Source of the DNA: Fluviicola sp.
GTDB taxonomy: Bacteria > Bacteroidota > Bacteroidia > Flavobacteriales_D > Crocinitomicaceae
Direction of reading: 5' to 3'
DNA: 38,928 nt
NCBI GenBank assembly: GCA_002733985.1
Contig: NVXP01000003.1
Location: 62,883 to 101,810, forward strand
Below are positions 20,979-23,921 of the stretch, piece after piece. Both the position numbers and the translations under genes were made by a program. Every line of letters starts with the position of its first letter. The first letter of the stretch is position 1. Under the pieces are notes generated by a model, which worked only from the letters and a program-made list of their open reading frames with translations, was not told the origin of the DNA and ran no database searches.

Positions 20979-21428
20979 TTATTTAACTGGAGCACCTGAA
21001 GTACTCACTGGAGCACCCGATACTGGTTTCGGAAGCACGTTTCCCATGATCCGTACAACTTTGACAGGTGTATTGATCGCATTCGAGTTTACTGTTACAC
21101 TTTTATTGATCGCACCAGCCTTCTGCGTGTTGTATTTCACTTTAAGCACACCTGTTTCACCTGGTGCAATTGGTGCTTTTGGCCATTCTGGAACAGTACA
21201 ACTGCACGATCCTTTTACAGCTCCAAGCACTAGGGGTTCGTTACCTGTGTTTTCGAAAATAAACGTACAGTAGCCATCACCACCATATTTTACTTCGCCA
21301 TAGTCATACGTATCTTCCAAGAACGTGATTTTTGCTCCTGATTGAATTGGCTCGTTTTGAGCAAAAGAATTAAATGACATTGCCACCATCACAAGGGCAG
21401 CAATTGTAGAAGAAATTAACTTTTTCAT
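20979..21428 (-). CDS. Secreted DUF1573 protein (1 of 4)
   Basis: 149 residues: a signal peptide (MKKLISSTIAALVMVAMSFN, cleavage near SFA-Q), then a single Ig-like DUF1573 domain. Landmarks are YDYGEVKYGGDGYCTFIFEN, the Cys-x-Cys turn KGSCSCTVPEWPKAPIAPGE (~71-90) and INKSVTVNSNAINTPVKVVR. The C-terminus ends in a repeated SGAPV tail. DUF1573 is abundant in Bacteroidota and related to ASPM-SPD-2-Hydin/MSP-like Ig folds; its molecular role is unknown and export to the periplasm is inferred. It is transcribed alone, with a strong terminator after it and TTAACA direct repeats in front. Confidence 0.88.
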   Translation of the reverse strand: MKKLISSTIAALVMVAMSFNSFAQNEPIQSGAKITFLEDTYDYGEVKYGGDGYCTFIFENTGNEPLVLGAVKGSCSCTVPEWPKAPIAPGETGVLKVKYNTQKAGAINKSVTVNSNAINTPVKVVRIMGNVLPKPVSGAPVSTSGAPVK

Positions 21429-21451: not shown

Positions 21452-21535
21452 CCAATCTACATCTGATAAACTCAAGAAAAAAACCTATTAACAGACCATT
21501 AACAGGCTTAACAAAGCGTTAACTATGTTGTAACA
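21452..21535 (-). promoter_or_regulatory. Promoter region with phased TTAACA repeats (Pho-box-like)
   Basis: TTAACA-type hexamers on the plus strand start at 21488, 21499, 21508, 21519 and (as GTAACA) 21530, a period of 11, 9, 11 and 11 bp. CCAATCTA (21452-21459), read on the minus strand as TAGATTGG, is one base from TAnnTTTG. The nearest hexamer starts 29 bp upstream of this -7 element. The DUF1573 promoter at 23870-23921 has the same geometry (28 bp). PhoB/PhoP-type response regulators are known to bind direct repeats at 11-bp period, the Bacillus PhoP site being TT(A/T)ACA. Assignment here is inference. Confidence 0.55.
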
Positions 21536-21651: not shown

Positions 21652-22278
21652 TTATGCATTCTTAGCTTCTTCTTTAGCTAATTTAGCTTCAGCTTTCAAT
21701 GCTTTTTTCTCTTCCTTCATTGCAATTTTTGCTTCCTTCTTTTTTGCTTTCGCTTCTTTTTTCAAGCGTTTCTTTTCAGCTTTAAGTTCAGCTTTCGTCA
21801 TTGGAACAACTATAGCTGGTACTTCTGGTGCAGGAGGCACTTCTTCTACCACCTCAACTAATACAGGAACCTCCTCTACAACTTCAGCAGCCAATACGGA
21901 CCCTTTAATGCGGATTACCTTAACTGGTGTATTAACGGCGTTCGAAGTAATCGTAACGCTTTTGCTAAAAGCACCAAATCGTTTAGTATCGTACGTAACT
22001 TCGATCTTCGCAGATGCTCCTGGCGCGATTGGTGTTTTCGGCCATGAAGGCACTGTACACCCACAAGAACCTTTTGCGTTTGTGATCAACAAGTCATCAG
22101 ACCCAGTATTCGTAAACTCAAACGCGTAGGTTCCATTTCCTTTGTGAGGAATAGTTCCATAGTCGTGAAGGTCTTTTTCAAATTCGATAGCAGCTCCTAG
22201 AGAAATTTCTTGTGCCATTGCTGTCGACGTCATTCCTGCGAAGACTAGCACTAAAAGTGATAATATTGATTTTTTCAT
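21652..22278 (-). CDS. Secreted DUF1573 protein (2 of 4) with Lys/Ala/Glu-rich tail
   Basis: 208 residues. Signal peptide MKKSILSLLVLVFAGMTSTA (site near AMA-Q), then a DUF1573 domain with HDYGTIPHKGNGTYAFEFTN, KGSCGCTVPSWPKTPIAPGA and SVTITSNAVNTPVKVIRIKG. Unlike its paralogues it continues for ~75 residues: a Val/Glu/Pro stretch with repeated VVEEVP, then a helix made almost wholly of Lys, Ala and Glu (KAELKAEKKRLKKEAKAKKK and onward). Such a cationic tail could bind peptidoglycan, nucleic acid or lipopolysaccharide; this is inference. It has its own terminator and an upstream region unlike the other two DUF1573 promoters. Confidence 0.85.
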   Translation of the reverse strand: MKKSILSLLVLVFAGMTSTAMAQEISLGAAIEFEKDLHDYGTIPHKGNGTYAFEFTNTGSDDLLITNAKGSCGCTVPSWPKTPIAPGASAKIEVTYDTKRFGAFSKSVTITSNAVNTPVKVIRIKGSVLAAEVVEEVPVLVEVVEEVPPAPEVPAIVVPMTKAELKAEKKRLKKEAKAKKKEAKIAMKEEKKALKAEAKLAKEEAKNA

Positions 22279-22315
22279 TTTTCGTTTTTTTCGTTTTTAT
22301 CAGGACTACCGTCTT

Positions 22316-22344
22316 GATGCTCGCGATAACTTTCGAGATGCATC
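22316..22344 (-). promoter_or_regulatory. Leader hairpin before DUF1573 gene 2
   Basis: GATGC (22316-22320) pairs with GCATC (22340-22344); inside, TCG/CGA extends the stem with a small bulge. The hairpin would lie in the 5' leader of the gene starting at 22278. A GATGC/GCATC hairpin also occurs in the leader of the DUF1573 gene at 23794. Confidence 0.4.
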
Positions 22345-22373
22345 GACTTGTTCTAATTTGTAGTTTAAGGATA

Positions 22374-22446: not shown

Positions 22447-22971
22447 TTAGATAATCTCTGAAAGAATCATTGTGCAAATGTATTTAGCAGATTCTACTAA
22501 GCTGTAGCACTCATGCGTTTGATCGTCAAAAATAGTTGGAACTAGCTTGAAATTCTCAAACCACGATTGAGTGGGCCCATTCGCTTCTAGTTCCCCATAA
22601 TACAGGCTTATTTTTGAAAATGGCTTGGTAATTTCATTCCGCAAACGAGTCGCAGAAACCAAATGTAGCGACGTTATTTTATTGTTTTCAGTTGCAAATT
22701 TCCACGCGATCGTTCCGCCAATGCTAAAACCTAGAATGATTGATGCCTTTGGTTCATGTGTAAGTAAATTTTGAACCGCTCGCTCTGTTCCTCCATTGAT
22801 AAATTCAGAATGAACTTGCTTTTGATCAAGCGAAGTGATCCCAGCTAACACTCGGCTATCGTATTCAATTACCTCGAAGTATGGGGTGAGTTTTTTTCGA
22901 TATTCTTCCATCCAATTGCCCGTAGTATTCCCGTAGATATCAGAAATCAGGACAAGTCGAGGCTTACTCAT
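22447..22971 (-). CDS. Small alpha/beta-hydrolase-fold protein
   Basis: 174 residues from ATG 22971; an in-frame TTG at 22980 is less likely. The opening strand KPRLVLISDIYGNTTGNW, then the nucleophile elbow GFSIGGT (Ser83) after ASIIL, and a late DQTHE (His153) match a compact alpha/beta hydrolase such as RBBP9-like or dienelactone-hydrolase-like proteins. Asp149/150 may supply the acid. No signal peptide, so cytoplasmic. ATG overlaps the stop codon of the preceding DUF1573 gene (ATGAGTAA, 8 bases), so it is the third gene of a DUF1573-DUF1573-hydrolase operon. Substrate unknown. Confidence 0.7.
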   Translation of the reverse strand: MSKPRLVLISDIYGNTTGNWMEEYRKKLTPYFEVIEYDSRVLAGITSLDQKQVHSEFINGGTERAVQNLLTHEPKASIILGFSIGGTIAWKFATENNKITSLHLVSATRLRNEITKPFSKISLYYGELEANGPTQSWFENFKLVPTIFDDQTHECYSLVESAKYICTMILSEII

Positions 22972-23341
22972 TGGGAACAACTTTCACTTTAAATCGAATG
23001 CTGTGCGTTTTCTTTTTGGTATTCGCAATTAGAATGATTGTACGATCTTGGAAGTAGTACTTATCTTTTGTATCGAATGATACTTGAAGCGCAAAAGATT
23101 CTCCGGGCGCGATTGGATCTTCAGGGAGAACTGCTTTCGTACAGGTACAAGAAACTTTGTAATCAGAAATGATTAAGGGTATATCTCCAGTGTTCGTGAT
23201 CATGTAATTATGTATTAAAACAACTCCTTGTTTCGTTGAAGGAAACTTATGTAGAGATTTGTCTATACTAAATTCCGCCTCCTGACAAAAGCCAAGGGCG
23301 GAATTCAATGCTATAATTATGATCGCGAAAAATAGCCTCAT
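22964..23341 (-). CDS. Secreted DUF1573 protein (3 of 4), divergent short form
   Basis: 125 residues: signal peptide (MRLFFAIIIIALNSALGFCQ, predicted cut near Cys19-Gln20), then one DUF1573 domain. The conserved turn is altered to VSCTCTKAVLPEDPIAPGES: Cys-x-Cys is kept but the usual TVPxWP is lost. Glycine residues before the turn are also replaced (HNYMITNTGDIPLIISDYKV). Cys19 could in principle be a lipid-modified cysteine, but the lipobox is poor (ALGFC). Its ATG directly follows the stop of the 23342-23794 gene and its stop overlaps the hydrolase gene, so it is the middle gene of a tight operon. Confidence 0.8.
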   Translation of the reverse strand: MRLFFAIIIIALNSALGFCQEAEFSIDKSLHKFPSTKQGVVLIHNYMITNTGDIPLIISDYKVSCTCTKAVLPEDPIAPGESFALQVSFDTKDKYYFQDRTIILIANTKKKTHSIRFKVKVVPNE

Positions 23342-23794
23342 TTAGTTATTTGTAGGGCCTGCATTTTGAACAGGTGCTCCTGATACTGCTTTAGGAAGAA
23401 CGTTTCCTTTAATGCGAATTACTTTAGTTGGTGTGTTCGTTGCGTTAGAAGTGATTGTTACACTCTTGTTTATCGCTCCTGGTCGTTTCGTATCATATTT
23501 CACAGTAATCTTCGAAGTTTCTCCTGGTGCTATTGGGTCTTTAGGCCAAGAAGGAACAGTACATCCACAAGATCCTTTTGCGTTTGAAATAATTAAAGGC
23601 TCAGTTCCTGTGTTTGTAAATTCAAATACACATTGACCGTTTCCTCCATGTTTTACTTCACCGTAATCGTGCGTTTCTTTGTCGAATTCAATTTTTGCTC
23701 CTTCAGCAACTTGCTGAGCAACTTCTTGAGCAATGACAGCTGACATTGATCCTGCTACGAAAATCATCATCAAAGAGAATAGTACTTTTTTCAT
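23342..23794 (-). CDS. Secreted DUF1573 protein (4 of 4), first gene of the operon
   Basis: 150 residues: signal peptide (MKKVLFSLMMIFVAGSMSAV, cut near VIA-Q), then the DUF1573 domain with HDYGEVKHGGNGQCVFEFTN, KGSCGCTVPSWPKDPIAPGE and SVTITSNATNTPTKVIRIKG, and a short SGAPVQNAG tail like that of the paralogue at 20979-21428. The two are clearly recent duplicates. The stop codon is immediately followed by the next ATG (no gap). Upstream are two leader hairpins, a perfect -7 element and phased TTAACA repeats. Confidence 0.88.
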   Translation of the reverse strand: MKKVLFSLMMIFVAGSMSAVIAQEVAQQVAEGAKIEFDKETHDYGEVKHGGNGQCVFEFTNTGTEPLIISNAKGSCGCTVPSWPKDPIAPGETSKITVKYDTKRPGAINKSVTITSNATNTPTKVIRIKGNVLPKAVSGAPVQNAGPTNN

Positions 23795-23869: not shown

Positions 23870-23921
23870 CAAATATAGTGCAAGTTTTCAAAATAGGCAC
23901 CTTTTTAACACATCGTTAACA
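23870..23921 (-). promoter_or_regulatory. Promoter of the DUF1573 operon with TTAACA direct repeats
   Basis: CAAATATA (23870-23877) reads TATATTTG on the minus strand, a perfect TAnnTTTG -7 element. TTAACA hexamers on the plus strand start at 23905 and 23916 (11-bp period), 28 bp upstream of the -7 element; a weaker TTTAAA follows at 23927. No good -33 TTG is found at normal spacing, consistent with an activator-dependent promoter. Confidence 0.55.

Follow-up and report, generated by a model that had tools for sequence, protein, structure and literature searches.

Upstream of a DUF1573 gene in the genome of Fluviicola sp. lie five short, regularly phased direct repeats, and the question raised by this locus is which kind of regulator would read them. 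The window, i.e., the whole stretch of 38,928 nucleotides analysed here, contains four DUF1573 genes (Pfam), all on the minus strand and here called A to D. Bacteroidota commonly encode DUF1573 proteins, which are seldom mentioned in the open-access literature and to our knowledge have no known function. The initial annotation took the repeats for a Pho box and predicted that DUF1573 belongs to a phosphate-starvation or other OmpR-type regulon. Judged from the sequence comparisons described below, the array is bound by an OmpR-family response regulator of the RprY clade with a probability of about 0.77, and it is probably not a phosphate-starvation switch. The features concerned are as follows.

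20979..21428, minus strand: DUF1573 gene D, the predicted target of the array; exported Ig-like/ASH-type protein of 149 aa (Pfam PF07610, 103.6 bits)
21452..21459, minus strand: Bacteroidota-type -7 element TAGATTGG (TAnnTTnG), 28 bp from the proximal half-site
21488..21504, minus strand: promoter-proximal pair TGTTAA-N5-TGTTAA, the putative core operator; one of three matches in the own genome to GTTAA-N6-GTTAA-N25-30-TAnnTTnG
21488..21535, minus strand: five phased half-sites, from distal to proximal TGTTAC, AGTTAA, TGTTAA, TGTTAA and TGTTAA, at steps of 11, 11, 9 and 11
21652..22278, minus strand: DUF1573 gene C, with its own leader and no GTTAA pair
22447-22980: weakly hydrolase-like gene between DUF1573 genes B and C
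22964..23341, minus strand: DUF1573 gene B, directly downstream of gene A, no operator of its own
23342..23794, minus strand: DUF1573 gene A (Pfam PF07610, 123 bits), the most conserved target across the class
23870..23877, minus strand: -7 element TATATTTG of gene A, 27 bp from the operator
23905..23921, minus strand: second predicted operator TGTTAACGATGTGTTAA, conserved in 80/80 orthologues

On the plus strand the hexamers read TTAACA at 21488, 21499 and 21508, TTAACT at 21519 and GTAACA at 21530, confirming the five TTAACA-like copies first described (three exact, two with one mismatch) and their steps of 11, 9, 11 and 11. Dinucleotide shuffling of the intergenic region gave a chain of five hexamers, with one mismatch allowed and steps of 9-11 bp, in 0 of 3000 trials; 0 of 100 shuffles of the window had one, and the best chain on the opposite strand had two hexamers. 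TTAACA alone is in slight excess in the window (49 versus 36 expected); it is the phasing that is striking. Read along the gene strand, the array is a TGTTAA direct repeat, with 28 bp between the proximal copy and TAGATTGG, in agreement with the -7-like element noted earlier near the array, and Pfam likewise agrees with the earlier naming of the downstream gene as DUF1573.

A second TTAACA-N5-TTAACA pair, TTAACACATCGTTAACA at 23905-23921, had been omitted. It lies before gene A, in the orientation of the array and 27 bp from TATATTTG. Genome-wide statements on such sites are based on pattern scans. Exact pairs occur 11 times in the 5.09-Mb genome versus once in the reversed control; two of the 11 are the DUF1573 sites of the window, and the other nine are away from DUF1573 and RprXY-like genes, one of them adjoining a PhoB-like regulator. 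The genome holds eight DUF1573 matches and eight OmpR-type DNA-binding domains. In leaders or intergenic regions, a hairpin-like element, GATGCTC...GCATCG, also recurs (window 22313-22353, L030:5424, L045:7129 and L046:8586).

Conservation of the putative operator in DUF1573 promoters

Relatives have the motif in the same position upstream of their DUF1573 orthologues. The strict pattern TGTTAA-N5-TGTTAA-N24-30-TAnnTTTG has 63 matches in 99 relatives, usually one per genome, compared with 2 in the reversed control, and all of the 31 sites examined there precede a DUF1573 gene, nearly always one closest to gene A. Class-wide, in 395 genomes, 74 matches to the strict pattern were found among those listed, versus 4 in the control; the loci examined have DUF1573 in some families, a kinase-regulator operon in four and other genes in a few. 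The pattern also precedes an adenosylhomocysteinase-like gene in two genomes of family f34 (L115, L116).

A-type DUF1573 genes were compared in 80 relatives, mostly Crocinitomicaceae/Flavobacteriales and with Fluviicola included. GTTAA-N6-GTTAA, at a period of exactly 11, is present in 80/80, where the search expression fixes the GTTAA letters, but neither their presence nor the flanking T, A and -7 columns. TAnnTTnG lies 26-28 bp from the operator in 56 of these 80 promoters and is unrecognised by the strict expression in the other 24, and no conserved -33 element stands between operator and -7 element in the 80. For gene B, a site was found in 0 of 40 genes of relatives. The longer array of gene D has counterparts as well, since its spacing of 11, 11, 9 and 11 recurs in the orthologous promoters L283 and L284 and is also visible in L048 and L049; the -7 element is TAGATTGG in L048 and L049 and TAGTTTGG in L283 and L284. 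At least two direct half-sites, at about the period of a helical turn and beside the core promoter, are thus present, as in operators of the OmpR/PhoB type. The array is a genuine and deeply conserved candidate docking site.

RprY-like regulators and their own operons

In most Bacteroidota, an RprX-type kinase is encoded next to an RprY regulator (PMC6032018). In the own genome, the 11-bp pattern GTTAA-N6-GTTAA-N25-30-TAnnTTnG has three matches, namely the promoters of DUF1573 genes A and D and that of the C115 histidine kinase, whose partner is an RprY-like regulator, while the sole match at a 10-bp period (GTTAA-N5-GTTAA) is the C85 kinase-regulator operon. Together the scans match four promoters, half of them at DUF1573 genes and half at RprXY-like operons. 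The C115-type operons of seven other genus genomes and of families f4 and f9 bear the same site, as do the kinase-regulator operons of f32, f34, f79 and f80.

Across 50 genomes, the 11-bp scan gave 69 matches versus 26 in the reversed control and the 10-bp scan 63 versus 28, control counts so sizeable that lone matches elsewhere can be chance. The matches with promoter geometry fall mainly at DUF1573 genes and at histidine kinases paired with RprY-like regulators. At the 10-bp period, 39 of the 63 precede an RprY-like regulator by 1-2 kb, which is the position of the kinase promoter, with TGTTAAAAAACGTTAAGC as a typical sequence. At the 11-bp period, 26 of the 69 are at DUF1573 by their listed coordinates, about 15 others turned out on inspection to be promoters of DUF1573 genes, and 11 are at RprY-partner kinases. 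The operator is therefore common to the RprXY-like operons and the DUF1573 genes. One kinase promoter of another genome (L227, G019 C21) carries four GTTAA copies in an array resembling that of gene D.

Since the GTTAA direct repeat of the DUF1573 promoters also precedes the RprXY-like operons, with an equal distance to the -7 element, the system is predicted to be autoregulated. This parallels RprY of Porphyromonas gingivalis, which is reported to bind its own promoter and has been suggested to be a repressor (PMC3646045). The systems resemble RprX/RprY of Bacteroides fragilis and P. gingivalis (NF051850) in combining an OmpR/PhoB-family regulator with an adjacent kinase, of 528 aa for C115 and 538 aa for C85; no kinase gene immediately precedes that of the C130 regulator. 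All three match NF051850 better than any other family (C85 309 bits, C130 275 and C115 271), yet these scores of 271-309 bits stay below the equivalog cut-off of 370, and up to three paralogues occur here. In the nine genomes searched, no non-RprY regulator scores above 152. In the regulator tree, whose long branches make details within the clade unsure, C85, C115 and C130 fall into one clade, separate from PhoB-like proteins (support 100/99), and they have a common recognition helix, RS(M/L)DV(Y/F)I(A/T)KLRK, that of PhoB-like proteins being RT(I/V)DVH(I/V)RKLR. The targets differ too: chaperones, nqrA and ahpC are known for P. gingivalis, whereas DUF1573 is the predicted target here, with dapF, bamD and BT_3928 as further candidates in relatives. 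This difference, like the suggested repressor role of the P. gingivalis protein, counts against the RprY reading. No RprY consensus site and no study of DUF1573 regulation were found in the open-access literature.

A further link comes from a loss. The congener G001 (99% complete) has no RprY-like regulator, its best score of 142 bits being at the level of unrelated regulators, whereas each of the other eight genomes searched has at least one at 270 bits or more. G001 also has no match to the promoter pattern, and its DUF1573 gene stands without the site (L055, L365). This is one clean event of co-loss only. Families f5, f7 and f12 have RprY-like regulators and no clear DUF1573 site, so the link between RprY and DUF1573 is not strict and can be lost on the target side. 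Because the scans match both DUF1573 genes and RprXY-like operons, and because of the co-loss in G001, the array is likely a site of an autoregulated RprXY-type system. Conservation across many families, together with the same sites at RprX/RprY-like operons, supports the membership of DUF1573 in a predicted OmpR-type regulon.

Phosphate and other readings of the array

Some observations favour a Pho box. A PHO box consists of two 11-nt direct repeats (PMC4415409), and the TTAACA-type repeats of the array have the same 11-bp period. Like the sites of PhoB and Bacillus PhoP, they stand head-to-tail beside a core promoter, and the Bacillus PhoP half-site TT(A/T)ACA is similar to theirs. A PhoB-like regulator bound here would place DUF1573 in the phosphate-starvation regulon. 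The own genome does have a phosphate-like locus on contig C130, with two PhoB-like regulators, a PhoR-like kinase, a Na/Pi cotransporter with PhoU (the only PhoU domain found in this genome) and Porin_O_P, whose promoter region contains three GTTAA half-sites. Some 100 bp before the PhoB-like/PhoR-like pair stands one of the 11 exact TTAACA-N5-TTAACA pairs; by chance, the regions upstream of the eight regulators should together contain 0.007 of them. The repeat pair here, TATGTTAAC-TAGGT-GTTAACATA (L030:5189-5204, G000 C130), is perfectly inverted and lies between the PhoB-like regulator and a divergent gene; two TGTTAA stand in direct register, but the -7 promoter spacing is missing. A search of the Na/Pi-porin locus gave this one inverted pair and no site with promoter geometry. 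No pst or pho gene is among the characterised promoter-pattern matches, and no GTTAA pairs were found at 13 loci of PhoB-type or other non-RprY regulators, including PhoB-type loci of relatives. The motif instead tracks RprY-like operons, PhoB-like proteins have a different recognition helix, and G001 keeps a PhoB2-type regulator, yet lost the site. With no promoter geometry at the phosphate locus and RprY-like regulators at the operons that have the same site, the Pho box was set aside as the main reading and is quite improbable. What survives of the initial annotation is the type of site, that of the OmpR/PhoB family, and the OmpR-type regulon; the phosphate identity finds no support at the loci covered, the best match being the RprY clade.

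Another conserved Bacteroidota transcription factor might bind the repeats, with the RprXY operons as mere co-targets; f5 and f7, which keep sites at RprXY-like operons without one at DUF1573, would agree with this. Against this stand the sites found at operons from each of the three RprY subclades, the joint loss of regulator and site in G001, and an architecture typical of the OmpR family; we regard the idea as unlikely. LytTR direct repeats, considered because of the GTTAA core, were rejected on their spacing. This spacing is about 21-22 bp, and the 11-bp pair stands alone in most DUF1573 promoters. As for a chance repeat in A+T-rich intergenic DNA, TTAACA is indeed common in the window, but the shuffles without a single equivalent chain and the conservation at a fixed position across families refute this, and it is hardly credible.

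Within the RprY clade, it may be asked which paralogue acts. A narrower version would assign DUF1573 specifically to C115 (or the C130 orphan) and confine C85 to its own 10-bp operator. C115 and its orthologues do have an 11-bp-period operator like that of DUF1573, and the three paralogues have the same recognition helix. C85-type operons have a 10-bp period, and this difference from the 11 bp of DUF1573 counts against the RprY reading in general. However, C115 orthologues occur in only 10 genus genomes and DUF1573 sites in most, and the only regulator found in G041 (98% complete) at E<=1e-45 is of C85 type, yet this genome keeps its DUF1573 site; C115 is thus dispensable. C115 as the sole regulator was rejected, as DUF1573 sites occur in genomes without it, and the narrower version is rather doubtful. 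The C85 pair is near-universal, and we infer that it is the most parsimonious candidate of the three to act on DUF1573.

A model of DUF1573 regulation and its wider setting

Under the favoured reading, binding by an RprY-clade regulator, the array would be the operator of an activator-type DUF1573 promoter, occupied by a dimer. A signal would be sensed by the RprX-like membrane kinase, and the phosphorylated RprY-like protein would bind head-to-tail on the 11-bp TGTTAA repeats that directly precede the core promoter. There it would presumably recruit RNA polymerase in place of a -33 element. Activation rather than repression is proposed, with the exported DUF1573 protein and additional sensor pair as output. 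At gene D, the five copies leave room for two or more dimers and may allow stronger or more graded expression.

In relatives, similar sites precede further genes, of which only the recurrent ones carry weight in view of the sizeable control counts. A GTTAA-N5-GTTAA promoter lies before dapF in seven genus genomes (G018, G012, G032, G011, G037, G039 and G016; loci L443, L444 and L423-L427). The same promoter geometry is found upstream of bamD in G021, G073 and G075, all from the order, and upstream of uppS in G040 (bamD and uppS loci L433, L434, L445 and L430). Sites of 11-bp period stand before a BT_3928-family gene in G019 and at DoxX-like genes or their operon in G021, G027, G072 and G073 (BT_3928/DoxX-like loci L449, L447 and L171-L173, in four families of the order). 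The dapF, bamD, uppS and BT_3928 sites belong to other species only, the own genome having no such match.

Sigma-E and Cpx are envelope stress regulons of E. coli. The recurrent sites in relatives at outer-membrane and peptidoglycan-precursor genes (bamD, uppS and dapF) recall them, although the regulator class and the sensor are different here. Taken with BT_3928, these sites suggest an envelope regulon. More tentatively, RprXY-type systems could form a conserved envelope-homeostasis response of Bacteroidota, in which one class of TGTTAA operators links the sensor pair to exported DUF1573 proteins and, depending on the lineage, to dapF, uppS, bamD and BT_3928-family proteins, with DUF1573 as core output; we consider this possible rather than likely.

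For DUF1573, the conserved operator provides a tie to an RprXY-type system, and with it a testable candidate regulator and a route to the signal. For the RprY clade, it offers a candidate DNA-binding consensus, TGTTAA-N5-TGTTAA or GTTAA-N5-GTTAA. Should the sites at dapF, bamD and uppS prove functional, they would indicate an envelope response in Bacteroidota, where little is known of pathways of this kind.
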